NCBI RefSeq assembly: GCF_004103695.1
Contig: NZ_CP035280.1
Span: 1,116,001-1,180,000 of the forward strand
Origin: Clostridium sp. JN-9
GTDB taxonomy: Bacteria > Bacillota > Clostridia > Clostridiales > Clostridiaceae
Length of the DNA stretch: 64,000 bases
Direction of reading: 5' to 3'
Shown: positions 18,173-26,946 of the stretch, piece by piece
How positions within the stretch are numbered: position 1 is the first letter of the stretch
Layout: each line of letters starts with the position of its first letter
The notes under the pieces: generated by a model
The model's input: only the letters and a program-made list of their open reading frames with translations
What the model was told of the DNA's origin: nothing
The model's database searches: none
Program-made: the position numbers and the translations under genes

Positions 18173-18297
18173 CAGAATAATTCATAAATTTTTTTCTTTT
18201 AATATTTATAAAAAAGTGTATTATGGTATTGTATTGATAGAGTATTAAAATTTGATTTGTTATGTATTGAATTTTGCAAAAAGGAGAATTTGATAAG

Positions 18298-21078
18298 TTG
18301 AAACGTATAGATAAAATATATAATTATTTACTTGATAATACAAAAAAACTTAACATGGATACTATAAAAGAAAAAAAAGGATTTAGCGCATCGGAAATCT
18401 CAAAAGAATTAGATATACTTAGAAATAATGTGAGTATGGAATTAAACGTACTGCTTAGGGATAAAAGAATAATAAGGATCAAGGGAAGACCAGTGCTGTT
18501 TTTAGAAAAGAGTACTGTAGAGGATATTATTGGATTTAAGCTTCAAGGTGAGTCTTTAGAATTTGACAGTATAGATAAATTAATTGAATTAAGTAATGAA
18601 AATGAAAAAGATGAAGATCCATTTAATGATTTAATAGGTTCGGAAACAAGCCTTAAAAATCAAATAGAGCAGGCTAAGGCTGCGGTACTATATCCTCCTA
18701 ATGGTCTGCATACTTTAATTGTGGGGCAGACTGGAGTTGGAAAAACATTATTTGCAAACATGATGTACAATTATGCTAAGTATGCCAAGAGGTTCAGCGA
18801 AGATACACCATTTATAGTGTTTAATTGTGCTGATTACTATAACAACCCTCAGTTATTAATATCACAAATTTTTGGCCATGTAAAAGGAGCTTTTACAGGT
18901 GCAGATAGTGAAAAAGAGGGCTTGGTTGAAAAGGCAGATGGGGGAATGTTATTTTTAGATGAAATACACAGACTTCCGCCTGAAGGCCAGGAAATGATTT
19001 TTTACTTCATGGATACAGGCACCTATAATAAATTAGGTGAAACTGATAGAAATAGAAAATCCAATGTTCTAATAGTAGGAGCTACAACGGAAGATCCAGG
19101 ATCTTCATTATTAAAAACCTTTGTAAGAAGGATACCAATAATAATAACAATTCCCAGCTTAGAGGAAAGATGTGCAAAGGATAAGCTTGATATAGTAAAA
19201 TTTTTATTATCTAATGAATCCCATAGGGTAAATAAACCTATAAGAATTGAAGCTGATGCTGTAAAAGCTTTAATAGGAAGTGCATCTTACGGGAATATAG
19301 GGCAGTTAAAATCTAATATTCAGCTTGTATGCGCTAAAGGCTTTTTAAATAGTATTGGCAGTAAAGATTTTATTGAAATAGATTTTAAGTCATTACCTTC
19401 AGATATAAAAAACGGACTTTTCCAATTAAGCAGGAAAAGGAAGGAAATTGAAGAGCTATCCAGCTACATTGATTCTAATTTAGTAATAACACCAGAGGGC
19501 GGATACAAAATGCTCATAGATGAAGATCCATATGAGCTTCCCTTCAACTTATATAAGATTATAGAGGATAAAGCAGCAGTATTAAAAGATGAAAATATAG
19601 ATGAAGAGTATATTAAACAATTTATTACTACTGATATAAATGTGCATATAAAAAGTTTTTATGATAAATTTAAAAACAACACAAATGACAGGGGGAAGAT
19701 ATTAAGAATTGTAAATGAGGATATACTGCAGTTTGCAGAAGAGATAAAACGCATGGTAGAAGTTAAACTGGATAAGAAATTAAACGAAAGATTTCTATAT
19801 GCTTTAAGTCTTCATTTAAGTGCATTTTTAAAGAGGGTAGAAGACAACAGACCTTTAAAATATACCAATATAGAAGGCACTATTAAGGATAATCCTAAGG
19901 AGTACAATGTTTCATTAGAAATAAAACAGTTAATAGAAGAGAAATATAATATAGTGGTTCCAGATATGGAAGTAATGTATTTGACACTGCTTTTGAGTTC
20001 TATTCAATATGATACAAGTAATGGGCATGTAGCTGTAATAGTTGCCTGTCATGGAAGCAGTACAGCAAGCAGCATGGTTAATGTAGCAAAAAATCTGCTT
20101 GGAGATGGGGTTGTGGAAGCCGTAGATATGCCATTAGAAATCAGTCCCACAAAAATACTTGATGAGATGATTGAAAAAGCCAAAGAGATAGATATGGGCA
20201 AAGGAGTTCTTCTTTTAGTTGACATGGGTTCCCTTGCAAGTTTTGATGCCATTATTACTGAAAAAACAAATATAAAAGTCAGGACTATAGATATGGTATC
20301 AACACCATTAGTATTAGAGGCAGTTAGAAAAGCAAATATTTTTGACATGGATTTAGACAGCATATATAATTCCCTTAAAGATTTCAGGGGGTACAGCAGA
20401 TATATAGATGAGTATAATAGTAAAGGAAAAGCTATAATAACTATATGTTCTTCCGGTGAGGGTACAGCAGAAAAACTTAAGGATCTTGTGAAAGATATAA
20501 TATACAATATAACTGACGAGACCATAGAAATAATTCCTATGGGAATAAAAGATTTAAATAATAAAATTCCAGTGCTTAGCAGGAGCTACAACATACTGGC
20601 ATCAGTGGGCATTGTAAATCCTAATATAGATAAGCCTTTTATATCATTGGAGTCATTGATTTCAGGAAATGGTGAAAAGGAAATTATTAGTATAATACAA
20701 AGAACTAATATTAAAATAGTAAAAAAAGACAGGGATATAGTAGTGAAAGATTTGTGTGAAGATAGTTTAAAACAGTTCTTGACCTATTTAAATCCATATA
20801 AAATAATAAGTGTATTGATAAAATTTGCAAGTGTATTAGAAAAAGACATGAATAAAGAGTTCGACAACAATATGCGTATTAAACTAATTATCCATACAGG
20901 CTGTGCTCTTGAAAGAGCTCTTATCAATGATAGCTTAATATATAAGGATGATAAAAGTAAATTAAATAAAAATATAATAAAAATTATAAGTAAAGCAAAC
21001 AACATATTTCAAGACACATTAAATATTATGTTGAATGAGGATGAAATTTGTTACATTGCAGAAATGTTCGAATCTTAA
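18298..21078 (+). CDS. levR: LevR-type sigma-54-dependent PTS activator
   Basis: The N-terminus has a winged-helix segment (about 10-65). An AAA+ sigma-54 activator domain follows with Walker A GQTGVGKT (about 142), the sigma-54 contact loop GAFTGA (about 198) and LFLDEIHRLP (Walker B). Then come a PRD (about 450-560), an EIIA-Man-like domain (IVACHGSSTASSM, with the phosphorylatable His), an EIIB-like segment (TICSSGEGTAEKL) and a last PRD (IHTGCALERAL). This is the B. subtilis LevR architecture at full length. The start is taken as TTG 18298, eleven bases after AAGGAG; the in-frame TTG at 18274 lies before that site. It should activate the sigma-54 promoter at 21231 for the downstream PTS genes when its PRDs are suitably phosphorylated. 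Confidence 0.92.
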   Translation: MKRIDKIYNYLLDNTKKLNMDTIKEKKGFSASEISKELDILRNNVSMELNVLLRDKRIIRIKGRPVLFLEKSTVEDIIGFKLQGESLEFDSIDKLIELSNENEKDEDPFNDLIGSETSLKNQIEQAKAAVLYPPNGLHTLIVGQTGVGKTLFANMMYNYAKYAKRFSEDTPFIVFNCADYYNNPQLLISQIFGHVKGAFTGADSEKEGLVEKADGGMLFLDEIHRLPPEGQEMIFYFMDTGTYNKLGETDRNRKSNVLIVGATTEDPGSSLLKTFVRRIPIIITIPSLEERCAKDKLDIVKFLLSNESHRVNKPIRIEADAVKALIGSASYGNIGQLKSNIQLVCAKGFLNSIGSKDFIEIDFKSLPSDIKNGLFQLSRKRKEIEELSSYIDSNLVITPEGGYKMLIDEDPYELPFNLYKIIEDKAAVLKDENIDEEYIKQFITTDINVHIKSFYDKFKNNTNDRGKILRIVNEDILQFAEEIKRMVEVKLDKKLNERFLYALSLHLSAFLKRVEDNRPLKYTNIEGTIKDNPKEYNVSLEIKQLIEEKYNIVVPDMEVMYLTLLLSSIQYDTSNGHVAVIVACHGSSTASSMVNVAKNLLGDGVVEAVDMPLEISPTKILDEMIEKAKEIDMGKGVLLLVDMGSLASFDAIITEKTNIKVRTIDMVSTPLVLEAVRKANIFDMDLDSIYNSLKDFRGYSRYIDEYNSKGKAIITICSSGEGTAEKLKDLVKDIIYNITDETIEIIPMGIKDLNNKIPVLSRSYNILASVGIVNPNIDKPFISLESLISGNGEKEIISIIQRTNIKIVKKDRDIVVKDLCEDSLKQFLTYLNPYKIISVLIKFASVLEKDMNKEFDNNMRIKLIIHTGCALERALINDSLIYKDDKSKLNKNIIKIISKANNIFQDTLNIMLNEDEICYIAEMFES

Positions 21079-21175
21079 TAAGTATATCAAAACCACTTAA
21101 AAGTAAAATATAAGAGTATTAAAAGTATAATTAGAGTGTATTAATAGAAATGACGTAATGGCTGAGATTAAATTC

Positions 21176-21200
21176 TAAAGCATTGCGGTACATGGCTTTA
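21176..21200 (+). promoter_or_regulatory. Candidate LevR upstream activator site
   Basis: The inverted repeat TAAAGCA (21176-21182) and TGGCTTTA (21193-21200) lies about 30 bp before the -24 element. It is the only clear palindrome there. Assigning it to LevR is inference. Confidence 0.4.
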
Positions 21201-21230
21201 AGCACTCTAAAGTTTTTTGATACACTTTGC

Positions 21231-21246
21231 TGGCACAATACTTGCT
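21231..21246 (+). promoter_or_regulatory. Sigma-54 (-24/-12) promoter of the PTS operon
   Basis: TGGCACAATACTTGCT is a perfect match to the TGGCAC-N5-TTGCW consensus, about 50 bp upstream of the first PTS start codon and downstream of a LevR gene. Confidence 0.93.
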
Positions 21247-21298
21247 AATAATATAAGTGCAGCTAAAGTGTGGTCAAAGCAGGCGGAGGACTTATAAA

Positions 21299-21793
21299 AT
21301 GGAAATTGTTTTAGCAAGAATTGATGACAGATTAATACATGGACAAGTAGCAACAGTTTGGTCAAAAGAAACAAGATGTGACAGAATAATAATATGCAAT
21401 GACGATGTTGCAAACGATGCCATCAGAAAAACACTTTTAGTTCAGGTTGCGCCTCCTGGAGTCAAAGTAAATGTACTGGAAGTTGAAAAAGCAATAAGAG
21501 TATATAAAAATTTTAAAAATGAAAACAGCAGAGTATTACTCTTATTTACTAATCCAACAGATGTAGTTGAAATGGTTGAAGGAGGAGTAGACATAAAGAG
21601 TGTAAATATAGGAGGTATGTCTTTTAGGGAAGGAAAGAAAATGATAACAAACTTTATTTCTGTTAATGAAGAAGATATTAAAGCTTTTCTTAAGTTAAAA
21701 GAACGGGGAGTGGAATTAGAAATTCGAAAAGTTCCCGGAGATCGAAAGAAAAATCTTATTGAGTTAATTCAGAAAAAAAATCACAATCATTAA
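21299..21793 (+). CDS. PTS mannose/fructose/sorbose family EIIB
   Basis: A 164-residue stand-alone EIIB of the Man family. The phosphorylated His is His14 in RLIHGQVATVW. Later motifs are APPGVKVNV, LLLFTNPTD, VNIGGMS and RKVPGDRKKNL. It carries phosphate from an EIIA to the sugar during EIIC/EIID transport. GGAGG precedes the ATG at 21299. The next gene encodes a fused EIIAB, so the operon has two EIIB domains; this one may serve signalling or a second sugar. Confidence 0.93.
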   Translation: MEIVLARIDDRLIHGQVATVWSKETRCDRIIICNDDVANDAIRKTLLVQVAPPGVKVNVLEVEKAIRVYKNFKNENSRVLLLFTNPTDVVEMVEGGVDIKSVNIGGMSFREGKKMITNFISVNEEDIKAFLKLKERGVELEIRKVPGDRKKNLIELIQKKNHNH

Positions 21794-21863
21794 TTTTGGT
21801 TACAGGTTTTTAGAACTTTTTTATAAATTTTACTGTAATAAATAAAAAATAGGAGGTATAAAA

Positions 21864-22841
21864 ATGGTAGGAATTATTCTTGCTAGTCATGGAGATTTTG
21901 CAAAAGGCATCTTACAAGCCAGTACAATGATTTTTGGAGAGCAAAAAAACTTGCAAGCTGTTACGTTAGCGCCTAGCGAAGGTCCTGATGACATTAAAGC
22001 AAAAATGAATAACGCAATTGCATCCTTTGACAACCAAGATGAGGTTTTATTCTTAGTTGATCTTTGGGGCGGTACACCATTCAATCAGGCAAGTAGTCTA
22101 TTTGAAAAACACAAAGATAAATGGGCAATCGTAGCTGGTATGAATCTGCCAATGGTGATTGAGGCTTATACTTTACGTTCTTCAATAGAATCAGCACAGG
22201 AGATTGCATCTAAAATTTTAGGAACTGCTAAAGAAGGAGTTAAAGTTAAACCTGAAGAATTAGAACCAAAAGATACTTCTAAATCTTCAAAGGCTTCAGC
22301 TGTGAAGTCTAATATGGGTGCATCTGGATCATTCGAATATGTTTTAGCTCGTATTGACTCTCGTTTACTTCACGGGCAAGTATCAACTTCCTGGTCAAAA
22401 GAAGTGAATCCTACAAGAATTATTGTTGTGTCAGATGCAGTAGCCAGAGATGAGCTTCGTAGGAAATTGATTCAACAGGCTGCTCCTCCAGGTGTTAAGG
22501 CTCATGTTGTTCCAATTAATCAAATGATTAAACTTGCAAAAGACAATAAACATTTTGGCGGACAGCGTGCAATGCTTCTTTTTGAGAATCCAGAAGATTT
22601 GCTTAAAGCTGTAGAAGGCGGAGTACCATTAAAGACAATCAATGTTGGTTCTATGGCTCACTCTGCAGGTAAGGTTCAGCCAAATAAAGTGCTTTCTTTC
22701 AATCAGGAAGATGTTGATAGTTTCAATAAGCTTAAACAATATGGAATTAATTTTGACGTTCGTAAGGTTCCAGGTGATTCAAAAGGAAATATGGACGAAA
22801 TCCTTAAAAAGGCACAAGAGGGATTAAATAATCAAAAATAA
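21864..22841 (+). CDS. manX: PTS mannose family EIIAB fusion (ManX type)
   Basis: An EIIA domain (1-125) has the active-site His9 in ILASHGDFAKG and the VDLWGGTPFN motif. A charged, Ser/Lys-rich linker (about 125-155) leads to an EIIB domain with His170 in RLLHGQVSTSW and the NVGSM and KVPGDSKGN motifs. The length of 325 residues fits E. coli ManX. It receives phosphate from HPr and passes it to mannose- or glucose-type sugars bound by EIIC/EIID. AGGAGG precedes the start. Confidence 0.94.
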   Translation: MVGIILASHGDFAKGILQASTMIFGEQKNLQAVTLAPSEGPDDIKAKMNNAIASFDNQDEVLFLVDLWGGTPFNQASSLFEKHKDKWAIVAGMNLPMVIEAYTLRSSIESAQEIASKILGTAKEGVKVKPEELEPKDTSKSSKASAVKSNMGASGSFEYVLARIDSRLLHGQVSTSWSKEVNPTRIIVVSDAVARDELRRKLIQQAAPPGVKAHVVPINQMIKLAKDNKHFGGQRAMLLFENPEDLLKAVEGGVPLKTINVGSMAHSAGKVQPNKVLSFNQEDVDSFNKLKQYGINFDVRKVPGDSKGNMDEILKKAQEGLNNQK

Positions 22842-22885
22842 TCTAATTATTTAGATATAATTAGATAAAAAGGAGGAAAATAATC

Positions 22886-23692
22886 GTGAGTTTGAATATA
22901 ATTCAAATCATATTAGTGGTTATCATAGCATTTCTAGCTGGTATGGAAGGTATCCTGGATGAATTCCAATTCCACCAGCCGCTAGTTGCTTGTACGTTAA
23001 TCGGATTGGTAACAGGTAACTTAGTACCATGTCTAATCTTAGGTGGTAGTCTTCAAATGATTGCCCTAGGCTGGGCAAATATAGGTGCTGCTGTAGCACC
23101 TGATGCAGCATTAGCATCTGTTGCATCTGCAATTATTTTAGTTCTTGGCGGACAAGGCAAAGCAGGAGTTTCTTCAGCTATAGCTATTGCTATTCCTTTA
23201 GCAGTTGCAGGGCTGTTATTAACAATTATTTGTCGTACTATTGCTACAGTGTTTATACATTTCATGGATGCTGATGCTAAAGAAGGAAATATCGGAAAAG
23301 TTGAAATGTGGCATGTTATTGCTATTTGTATGCAAGGTGTGCGTATTGCAATTCCAGCAGCTTTAATCTTAGCAGTTGGCGCTGGCCCAATTCGTGCATT
23401 ACTTGAAGCTATGCCTGTTTGGTTAACAGATGGCTTGGCAATTGGTGGTGGAATGGTTGTAGCTGTTGGTTATGCAATGGTAATCAATATGATGGCTACA
23501 AAAGAAGTATGGCCATTCTTTGCAATTGGTTTTGTATTAGCAACTGTTTCACAAATCACACTTATTGGATTAGGTGTAATTGGTACAGCTTTGGCTCTTC
23601 TTTACTTATCGCTTAGTAAAAAAGGCGGCTCAGGTACTGGCGGTGGATCAAATACTGGTGATCCATTAGGCGATATTATCGATAATTATTAG
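22886..23692 (+). CDS. manY: PTS mannose family EIIC (ManY type)
   Basis: A 268-residue multi-helix membrane protein starting at GTG after AAGGAGG. Motifs such as GMEGILDEFQFHQPLVACTL and GGSLQMIALGWANIGAA are diagnostic of the Man-class EIIC, which forms the sugar path with EIID. The C-terminus ends in a Gly/Ser-rich tail. It is 44 bases after EIIAB and 17 before EIID. Confidence 0.94.
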   Translation: MSLNIIQIILVVIIAFLAGMEGILDEFQFHQPLVACTLIGLVTGNLVPCLILGGSLQMIALGWANIGAAVAPDAALASVASAIILVLGGQGKAGVSSAIAIAIPLAVAGLLLTIICRTIATVFIHFMDADAKEGNIGKVEMWHVIAICMQGVRIAIPAALILAVGAGPIRALLEAMPVWLTDGLAIGGGMVVAVGYAMVINMMATKEVWPFFAIGFVLATVSQITLIGLGVIGTALALLYLSLSKKGGSGTGGGSNTGDPLGDIIDNY

Positions 23693-23709
23693 GAAAGGAG
23701 AGAACATAT

Positions 23710-24621
23710 ATGTCAGAGAAAATAAAATTAACAAAAAAAGATCGTATGTCTGTTTGTTGGCGTTCAACTTTCATTCAAGGTTCATGGAACTATGAAAGAA
23801 TGCAAAACGGTGGCTGGGCATTCTCATTGATTCCAGCAATCAGAAAATTATATAAAACTAAAGAAGATAGATCAGCTGCATTGCAGCGTCACTTAGAGTT
23901 CTTTAACACTCACCCATATTTAGCTTCACCAGTTATTGGTGTAACATTAGCCTTAGAAGAAGACCGTGCAAATGGTGCACCAGTAGATGATGTAGCCATT
24001 CAAGGTGTTAAAGTTGGTATGATGGGGCCTTTAGCTGGTATCGGAGATCCAGTTTTCTGGTTTACTGTAAGGCCAATTCTGGGAGCATTAGGTGCTTCTC
24101 TTGCTTTAAGTGGTAACATTATGGGACCAATCATATTCTTCCTTGCCTGGAATGCTATTCGTATGGCATTTATGTGGTACACACAAGAGTTTGGTTACAA
24201 AACAGGATCTCGTATTACCGATGATGTATCAGGTAATTTACTGCAGGATATTACAAAAGGTGCTTCCATCCTTGGTATGTTTATTTTAGGATCATTAGTT
24301 AACAGATGGGTATCTGTTAAATTTACACCTGTAGTATCATCCGTTAAGTTAAGTCCTGGTGCTTACATTGATTGGAGCAAACTTCCATCTGGAGCACAGG
24401 GTATCAAACAAGCTCTATTACAGCAGCAAGCTGGTTTGTCATTAACTCCTGACAAAGTTACAACACTGCAAAATAACTTAGATGCATTGATTCCTGGACT
24501 TGCAGGATTATTATTGACATTCTTCTGTATGTGGCTGCTTAAGAAGAAGGTATCTCCAATTGCCATTATTCTTGGCCTGTTCGTAGCAGGTGTTGTTTTC
24601 CACGTAATTGGTTTAATGTAG
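23710..24621 (+). CDS. manZ: PTS mannose family EIID (ManZ type)
   Basis: 303 residues. The N-terminus is soluble (RSTFIQGSWNYERMQNGGWAF, a family signature) and helices lie in the C-terminal half. GMMGPLAGIGDPVFW is conserved in EIID proteins. It completes the EIIC/EIID membrane complex. GAAAGGAG precedes the ATG. Confidence 0.94.
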   Translation: MSEKIKLTKKDRMSVCWRSTFIQGSWNYERMQNGGWAFSLIPAIRKLYKTKEDRSAALQRHLEFFNTHPYLASPVIGVTLALEEDRANGAPVDDVAIQGVKVGMMGPLAGIGDPVFWFTVRPILGALGASLALSGNIMGPIIFFLAWNAIRMAFMWYTQEFGYKTGSRITDDVSGNLLQDITKGASILGMFILGSLVNRWVSVKFTPVVSSVKLSPGAYIDWSKLPSGAQGIKQALLQQQAGLSLTPDKVTTLQNNLDALIPGLAGLLLTFFCMWLLKKKVSPIAIILGLFVAGVVFHVIGLM

Positions 24622-24741: not shown

Positions 24742-25116
24742 ATGATTCAATCACTTAATACAAAGGTAGATCTGGTAATTGATGCTACAAATTTCACAGG
24801 TGTTACAGCTTATGGAAAAGTAATGATTGGTGATAAAGGCTTTGAGTTTTATAATTCTAACGATTCCCGCAAATTTATTCAGATTCCCTGGGAAGAAGTT
24901 GATTATGTTATTGCATCCGTATTGCTGAAAGGAAAGTGGATTCCACGATATGCCATTAAAACCAGGAAAAATGGTACATATTCTTTTGCTTCTAAAGATG
25001 CAAAGAAAGTACTTCGTACTATTCGAAAATATGTTGATCCAAGTCATATAGTTCGCTCATTAAGTTTTTTTGATGTGATTAAAAGAGGGTTCAAATCAAT
25101 ATTTAAGAAAAGCTGA
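24742..25116 (+). CDS. manO: DUF956 family protein (ManO-like)
   Basis: A 124-residue soluble protein (starts MIQSLNTKVDLVIDAT; contains IPWEEVDYVIASV and RKNGTYSFASKD). DUF956 proteins are encoded at the end of mannose PTS operons in Firmicutes, where the name ManO is used, and are thought to modulate the transporter. GAGGAGG precedes the ATG. The position after EIID supports the call; the molecular role is not established. Confidence 0.85.
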   Translation: MIQSLNTKVDLVIDATNFTGVTAYGKVMIGDKGFEFYNSNDSRKFIQIPWEEVDYVIASVLLKGKWIPRYAIKTRKNGTYSFASKDAKKVLRTIRKYVDPSHIVRSLSFFDVIKRGFKSIFKKS

Positions 25117-25173: not shown

Positions 25174-25210
25174 AACCTATGCTGAAACTGTTGTTAAGGC
25201 ATAGGTTTTT
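25174..25210 (+). terminator. Terminator after ManO
   Basis: AACCTATGC pairs with GCATAGGTT (25199-25207), followed by a T run. Confidence 0.8.
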
Positions 25211-25226
25211 GTAAAATCATTGCAAA

Positions 25227-25457
25227 TTATAATCCTAGTAAATTATCAATACTGCCTTTGTCAAATCCAACAACTATGTTCCCGTCAATATCAATTACAG
25301 GTACTCCCTGCTGATTTGATTTGTGTATCATTTCCATTGCAGCATTTCTATCTCTTGATACATCTTTCTCTGAAAATGCTATATTTTGTAATTTTAGGTA
25401 ATCCTTTACCTTATGGCACCATGGTCAAGTAGGTGTAGTATAAACAGTAACATTCAT
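25227..25457 (-). CDS. Selenocysteine-containing glutaredoxin-like protein (in-frame UGA)
   Basis: A 76-residue frame that a standard gene caller would break at TGA (25427-25425). Read with Sec (U) at codon 11 it gives MNVTVYTTPTUPWCHKVKDY, a glutaredoxin/NrdH-type start in which the redox motif is U-P-W-C instead of C-P-W-C. The rest fits the fold: a helix, then QQGVPVIDIDG (cis-Pro loop) and GFDKGSIDNLLGL. GGAGG lies 8 bases before the ATG and the stop is TAA. A hairpin with the geometry of a bacterial SECIS lies 13 bases after the UGA (25396-25411). A strong promoter with a CsoR/CstR-like operator precedes it. The role is probably thiol-disulfide or persulfide reduction in the cytoplasm. 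It requires SelA, SelB, SelC and SelD elsewhere in the genome. The alternative is a nonsense pseudogene, but the loss of exactly the redox Cys codon argues against that. Confidence 0.85.
25396..25411 (-). promoter_or_regulatory. Candidate bacterial SECIS hairpin
   Basis: In the minus-strand mRNA AGGUAA pairs with UUACCU around an AGGA loop. The loop begins 19 nt after the UGA and contains G residues, within the spacing known for bacterial SECIS elements (roughly 16-37 nt to the apical loop). Confidence 0.7.
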
Positions 25458-25516
25458 ATTTTTTTCCTCCTAAATATAAAATTTTATTTTAATAATTTTA
25501 AGTGCATAAATTTTGC

Positions 25517-25568
25517 ATACCCTTAATGGGTATACAATGATTATATATTAATATATTATTGAAGTCAA
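25517..25568 (-). promoter_or_regulatory. Promoter with CsoR/CstR-like operator
   Basis: On the minus strand: TTGACT (25568-25563), a 17-bp spacer, TATAAT (25545-25540). The palindrome ATACCCATTAAGGGTAT (25533-25517) starts seven bases after the -10, over the expected start site. ATACCC-N-GGGTAT palindromes are typical of CsoR/CstR-family repressors that sense copper or sulfane sulfur. Confidence 0.75.
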
Positions 25569-25632: not shown

Positions 25633-26946
25633 TTATTCTAGTTCTCGTAAGGCATCTGACTTTTTGCTAAATTTATTAATTACAAAGTTTATTAAAAGGG
25701 ATGATATTACAGCAAAAATCCAGTATGTCATAGGCAGGAAGAAACATATTAAAACTACAGCTATAACAGGCTTCTTTAGCACTACTGTTATTATTCCAGT
25801 TGAAGCAACAGCTACAAGATAAGTGGGATCGATATTTAATATGCCGCTAATGGCAAATGCAATACAAAAGGAAGCAAATATTGTAGGAAATATCTGGCCC
25901 CCCACCCATCTTAAATTAATAGATATTTTAGTAGCTAATATCTTTAAAAAAGCAATAAACAAAAGATAAGAAACTCCCATTCCCGAATAATTATTAACAA
26001 GTCCTCTTAAGGCATGTTCACCTGAAAAAAGTATTACAGGGAAATATGCTCCTAATAGTGCTATAATAAATCCTCCAATTATTGCAGCAAGGAATGGATT
26101 TAAGCTCAATTTAGTTTTATTACAAATAAATTTTATTAAATGACCTATGTAGTTAAAGGATAAACCTATGAGTATTGAAAGAATTATAATAGGTATAAAG
26201 GCCAAAAGATCTTTACTGGAAATATGACTTTGATTTAATTTAAAAATAAAGCTTTCTTTATGTGTTAAATTATTTAAAAATTTTATTATAAAAAAAGAAG
26301 ACAATACTGTACAGCTATATGTAATATAATTTAATAGTTTTCTGGAAATAAGCTGTGCTTTATGAATTGTATCTTTATTAATAGAAAATGTACTGAAAAT
26401 AGGCACCTGGAAAATAGCAGTAAGTACAGCGCTGGTAGAAGTTTCTATAAATTCCTCTTTTAATTCAGTATTTGAATTTTTAATTTTCACGCTTAAAAAA
26501 GTTGAAAACATAGCTATCATCCCAAAAAGACCAGCTTCCGGGCCTATACTGCCTCCAAAAATCAAGGGTAAAAAAGCACACACAATATATTCAGGCAGAG
26601 GTTTATAGTCTATAGTTTTTGTAACCTTGTATTCATGAAGTACTTCTTCCATTTCTTTTGGATATGGACCTAAATACTTCTGACCAAGACCTATTATTAC
26701 TCCACCCAGTATACATAAAATTATAGTAATGGAGAAATTGCTTACTTTTATAATCTGAGGCAGCTCATGCCATAGAAAATTACTTGATATATTTATGAGA
26801 AACATAAATGACCAACAAAAAATACCAACTGCCGTACCCATTACAAAGCCGAAAAATACAATATTTTTTACAATAGATTTAATAGTAGACACCACCTTCG
26901 TGAAAGTTATACTTATAATGATATTATAGTCCATTTGAAAATTCAA
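25633..26946 (-). CDS. ClC-family chloride channel/transporter
   Basis: 437 residues with about 10-12 hydrophobic segments. The ClC selectivity motifs are visible: GGSIGPEAGLFG (GREGP-like) near residue 135 and GGQIFPTIF (GGxFxP) near 345. It moves chloride or another halide, or fluoride in some clades; there is no C-terminal CBS pair. A TTG start at 26946 is used because GAGGAGG lies 10 bases upstream. Only 4 bases separate it from the gerC stop, so it is the fourth gene of the germination operon. This is odd for a ger operon and suggests a role in ion movement during germination, or simple read-through. Confidence 0.85.
   Translation of the reverse strand: MNFQMDYNIIISITFTKVVSTIKSIVKNIVFFGFVMGTAVGIFCWSFMFLINISSNFLWHELPQIIKVSNFSITIILCILGGVIIGLGQKYLGPYPKEMEEVLHEYKVTKTIDYKPLPEYIVCAFLPLIFGGSIGPEAGLFGMIAMFSTFLSVKIKNSNTELKEEFIETSTSAVLTAIFQVPIFSTFSINKDTIHKAQLISRKLLNYITYSCTVLSSFFIIKFLNNLTHKESFIFKLNQSHISSKDLLAFIPIIILSILIGLSFNYIGHLIKFICNKTKLSLNPFLAAIIGGFIIALLGAYFPVILFSGEHALRGLVNNYSGMGVSYLLFIAFLKILATKISINLRWVGGQIFPTIFASFCIAFAISGILNIDPTYLVAVASTGIITVVLKKPVIAVVLICFFLPMTYWIFAVISSLLINFVINKFSKKSDALRELE

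Follow-up and report, generated by a model that had tools for sequence, protein, structure and literature searches.

The window, that is, the whole 64,000-nucleotide stretch of DNA analysed here (positions 1116001-1180000 of the one-contig, 3,223,191-base (3.22 Mb) genome of Clostridium sp. JN-9), carries on its minus strand a small glutaredoxin gene that is almost certainly a selenoprotein gene, its in-frame UGA being read as selenocysteine by way of SelB and a SECIS hairpin. This reading draws on four sequence features that occur together: an otherwise complete frame, the exchange of Cys and UGA at a single position amongst homologues, the presence of the decoding genes in the host genome, and a hairpin that co-occurs with the UGA. 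Experimental verification is on record for selenocysteine glutaredoxins, which have been described from a limited number of species (PMC13188914), and a 2006 survey counted three of them in bacterial genomes (PMC1794560). Because such proteins have already been reported, as the original prediction noted and the literature bears out (PMC13188914; PMC7642778; PMC4479559), the gene is a further member of a known, rare protein type.

Translation of the minus strand from 25457 to 25227 reads MNVTVYTTPT, then an internal stop that is the UGA of codon 11, then PWCHKVKDYLKLQNIAFSEKDVSRDRNAAMEMIHKSNQQGVPVIDIDGNIVVGFDKGSIDNLLGL and the terminal stop, which agrees with the predicted 76-residue glutaredoxin frame with TGA at the first Cys of C-P-W-C. 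PF00462 recognises the predicted protein with 65.4 bits (5e-18; cut-off 22.9), as does TIGR02196, the NCBIfam model for glutaredoxin-like protein, YruB-family, with 100.7 bits against a curated cut-off of 88.55, a threshold that is also passed by relatives of both UGA and Cys form (L053, L086, and L023). Most of the relatives found have Cys at the position in question, whereas the window gene has UGA. With its PF00462 domain and U-x-x-C active site, the protein has the features that define a selenocysteine glutaredoxin. The UXX-star (seleno)proteins resemble it in their glutaredoxin-like fold and in carrying Sec at the same active-site position; in searches with four UXX-star profiles, the window protein scored under every curated cut-off (NF041212, 59.6 against 66; NF041114, 36.1 against 72; NF041211, 35.7 against 100; and NF047338). 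Furthermore, the window protein retains the resolving Cys (U-x-x-C), unlike UXX-star family 1, for which a UxxT motif is given (PMC13188914).

The features of the locus and the decoding genes are collected in Table 1. Ribosome binding site, promoter, and stop had all been called good. The first and last of these stand, with AGGAGG well placed before the ATG and TAA at the end, but the promoter carries less weight, as sites of the TTGACT-17-TATAAT type exceed expectation only slightly in this AT-rich window (7 found against 4.2 +/- 2.1 expected). The putative terminator was unflagged by the scan because its loop is too long for that scan. The gene lies between a minus-strand neighbour that looks chloride-channel-like by eye (25633-26946) and, on the other side, a convergent gene (24742-25116). 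Elsewhere in the window, at 18274-24621, ORF translations read by eye indicate a LevR-like PTS regulator of the sigma-54 type and, after it, a cluster of mannose-family PTS genes. No similar locus was found amongst plasmid records.

Table 1. Features of the glutaredoxin locus (window positions) and genes for selenocysteine decoding (genome positions)
Feature	Position	Strand	Evidence
Glutaredoxin CDS, 76 residues + TAA, UGA read as selenocysteine (predicted), U-P-W-C	25227..25457	minus	Translation, PF00462, TIGR02196, alignment with UGA and Cys homologues
UGA codon 11, catalytic Cys position	25425..25427	minus	Translation; 135 homologous segments carry Cys or UGA only there
SECIS-type hairpin AGGUAA-AGGA-UUACCU, 6 bp, loop AGGA at 25402-25405	25396..25411	minus	Fold, homologue conservation, covariance model
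Ribosome binding site AGGAGG, 8 nt before ATG	25466..25471	minus	Sequence
Promoter-like TTGACT-17-TATAAT (11/12)	25540..25568	minus	Consensus scan only
Possible terminator, arms AACCTATGC / GCATAGGTT, then T-rich run	25174..25207	minus	By eye from sequence
selD (L020), one in-frame UGA	975045-975959		402 bits, over curated cut-off
selA	976091		639 bits, over curated cut-off
selB	977500		404 bits, over curated cut-off
tRNA-Sec, anticodon UCA	2354374-2354466		Over Rfam cut-off; anticodon by ARAGORN

A search of the host genome for selA, selB, selC, and selD, of which the original prediction held selB and selC to be indispensable, found all four, with selD, selA, and selB forming one cluster. The UGA in selD lies at the active-site position, in the context S-G-U-A-A-K, and the SelD of the host is for this reason probably a selenoprotein as well. 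As a separate observation, selC lies 1.37 Mb from selB in this genome and close behind selB in several relatives, and a 236-bp stretch whose end lies just past selB has a 100% identical duplicate beside selC. Two inversely oriented copies of one IS of ~2.1 kb, presumably IS1634-like as judged by eye, are found outside the window at G000:C1 979205-981941 (L173) and 2354300-2357232 (L174), and their other flanks have in common a 387-bp inverted repeat that is 100% identical. The arrangement fits an IS that inserted between selB and selC and generated long target-site duplications, with a 1.37-Mb inversion between two IS copies taking place afterwards.

Homologues were gathered from 58 relatives, then from 225 genomes of the order, and then as 80 loci from GTDB species genomes. 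The alignment of 135 segments has Cys (116) or UGA (19, duplicate records among them) at position 11 and nothing else, which is the exchange that had been anticipated, and the random stops elsewhere in the gene that would point to decay are absent from all 135; the one second stop reported, a TAA in L030, is where this gene ends naturally. There are 13 distinct UGA proteins with at least 50% identity, the window's and 12 others, with a divergent one in addition (L048, G013:C1:2260420-2260638), a U-P-H-C glutaredoxin that has a different downstream hairpin and resembles the type from C. oremlandii. The UGA forms come from the window's own family, a sister family (Caloramator and others), Tissierella, Gudongella, Soehngenia, and others.

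Of the 10 other UGA-form genomes tested, 9 have a SelB, scored as a TIGR00475 match over cut-off. In the tenth (G053), selB is split across contig ends, with a 523-residue open frame corresponding to profile positions 109-578 and positions 1-47 on another contig, and it was counted as present. SelB is thus present in all 11 UGA-form genomes tested, the window's own included, versus 5 of 19 Cys-form genomes (Fisher p = 8.7e-5, a value that is indicative only because the genomes are related). The gene tree, built on 76 columns, is poorly resolved because the protein is short. Parsimony requires a minimum of 8 changes between U and Cys on the tree as drawn and well-supported branches force 1, so that the tree establishes neither repeated gain and loss nor a single origin.

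The hairpin begins 14 nt after the UGA (13 nt between), and folding places its AGGA loop, with the G, 19 nt after the UGA, just as predicted. Published rules for bacterial SECIS elements ask for a loop of 3-9 nt, a stem of 4-16 bp, a G within the first two loop positions, and a distance of 16-37 nt from the UGA, with a free energy of -7.5 kcal/mol or lower (PMC13188914). The claimed match to these elements holds for every geometric rule (loop AGGA, 6 bp, 19 nt). For energy, ViennaRNA gives -5.2 kcal/mol for segments of 42-51 nt and -7.0 for 55-60 nt, both short of the limit, and -9.0 for 70-80 nt, a length that takes in a second, unrelated hairpin. Stability was rejected as evidence: at z = 0.35, the predicted energy does not improve on that of shuffled sequence. 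What argues that the hairpin is more than chance is its conservation amongst UGA homologues. Over the codons GTA AAG GAT TAC CT(A/T), the distinct UGA forms agree at GTA, AAG, and GAT in 10 of 10, at TAC in 9 of 10, and at CTA or CTT in 10 of 10, whereas in AT-rich Cys homologues the codon choice for these residues varies. Over the five codons, synonymous-codon identity reaches 0.89 in UGA forms; it is 0.54 in the remainder of these genes, and 0.51 over the hairpin region when Cys forms are compared.

Five further UGA loci were found later. Two of them (L145 and L151) share hairpin stretch and genome size with sequences already in the model (L053 and L079) and probably come from identical genomes, so that only three are independent checks; the core is kept in L143 and L152, and in L144 with the loop AGGC. 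Some Cys sequences have five or six stem pairs; L028, a Cys form that falls within the UGA group of Caloramator type, does not belong to them. A covariance model (R1) built without the window scores the window site above every other site in the genome, with 51 bits and E ~1e-12. The next matches, at 2139036 (22 bits, outside any comparable reading frame with UGA) and at 2058913 (18.5 bits, inside another reading frame), look like chance and were set aside. Close relatives' Cys forms score 24-44 bits with this model versus 37.7-62.7 for UGA forms; the Cys forms match because the coding sequence is homologous, and with overlapping ranges the model alone cannot separate the two kinds of homologue. 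An Rfam search of the locus returned nothing credible. Some Cys forms (L024 of G034, L067, L031, L150, L077, and L071) retain part of the hairpin sequence, for instance GGTAAAGGATTATTT in L024, and their genomes, where tested, have no SelB over cut-off. These partial hairpins may be relics of an ancestral Sec form, or no more than shared coding sequence.

These data also bear on whether the gene makes a full-length protein at all, because a frame interrupted by a single UGA is what a pseudogene, a true stop, or a sequencing error would produce. However, apart from this codon the 76-residue frame is uninterrupted and every catalytic residue is conserved, UGA occupies the same codon in independent genomes of other genera, and the synonymous sites of the hairpin are conserved only where UGA is present, which together make a broken gene very improbable. 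Alternative decoding of UGA exists elsewhere, and with sister proteins carrying Cys at this position, one could envisage that a variant tRNA or leaky termination inserts Cys or Trp in place of Sec. That, too, is highly improbable in a genome with a complete Sec system, including a tRNA-Sec with anticodon UCA, and in a family whose UGA forms co-occur with SelB and a SECIS-like hairpin.

Under selenocysteine decoding, SelA and SelD would make Sec-tRNA-Sec, and SelB would carry it and bind the hairpin at 25396-25411, such that the UGA at 25425-25427 is decoded as selenocysteine. The product would be the full 76-residue protein with the active site U11-P-W-C14. Following the established chemistry of the glutaredoxin fold, the U11 selenolate would attack a target disulfide or an oxidised thiol or selenol, and Cys14 would then resolve the mixed bond. 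We infer the actual incorporation of selenium, its catalytic advantage, and the substrate and reductant of the window protein.

The best solved-structure matches of the window protein are PDB 7c10, 7c12, and 7c13 (1e-16). We take these to be cGrx1 of C. oremlandii from the title of PMC7642778, in the text of which the codes themselves were not found. Both Grx1 and MsrA of Clostridium (Alkaliphilus) oremlandii are selenoproteins, and Grx1 has been proposed to reduce MsrA (PMC7642778; PMC4479559), a precedent for supposing that the window protein is likewise dedicated mainly to reducing a selenoprotein MsrA. Like the window protein, C. oremlandii Grx1 is a small clostridial glutaredoxin with native Sec first in U-P-X-C (PMC7642778), but it has U-P-H-C where the window protein has U-P-W-C, and the two are only ~43% identical, with a one-residue indel. 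A Cys-type paralogue in the same genome (L002) shares 55% identity with C. oremlandii Grx1 over 71 residues, which makes it, by sequence, the better candidate counterpart. Furthermore, a search of the host genome for a selenoprotein MsrA yielded a single MsrA match, which is without in-frame UGA, and the pairing of Sec-Grx with Sec-MsrA therefore does not transfer unchanged. A dedicated role in reducing selenoprotein MsrA is thus unlikely, though the window glutaredoxin could still reduce a Cys-type MsrA.

Two observations concern the source of electrons. In a UGA-form relative (L079), the gene is directly followed by a thioredoxin-reductase-like ORF, recognised by eye from its GGGPAGLTAAIYAARA motif. 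In the host genome, a search for one enzyme type of glutathione synthesis, GshF, gave no match over cut-off and recovered the ATP-grasp part only. Taken together, these point away from glutathione and to a thioredoxin-reductase-like, NAD(P)H-dependent flavoenzyme as the most likely reductant.

The window gene is part of a U-P-W-C subclade set apart from the clostridial type characterised so far. We propose, tentatively and with the balance tipped slightly against it, that the U-P-W-C, YruB-type proteins are a second lineage of Sec-glutaredoxins, distinct from that of C. oremlandii, with a near-invariant hairpin that was passed among clostridia, or else was kept while many relatives reverted to Cys along with loss of SelB; the partner would be thioredoxin-reductase-like and the substrate something other than selenoprotein MsrA.

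Because homology, decoding genes, and codon-level conservation of the SECIS agree, the gene should be annotated as encoding 76 residues and not as lost. Such cases are commonly missed, given that 195 of 298 selenoprotein genes of known families were correctly annotated in 20 test genomes (PMC12013277). The window gene leaves current knowledge of selenocysteine decoding unchanged. Its family does offer close Sec/Cys pairs, such as L028 (Cys) beside L027, L029, and L030 (UGA) within one genus, and these are a tractable set for the question of why selenocysteine is retained or lost.
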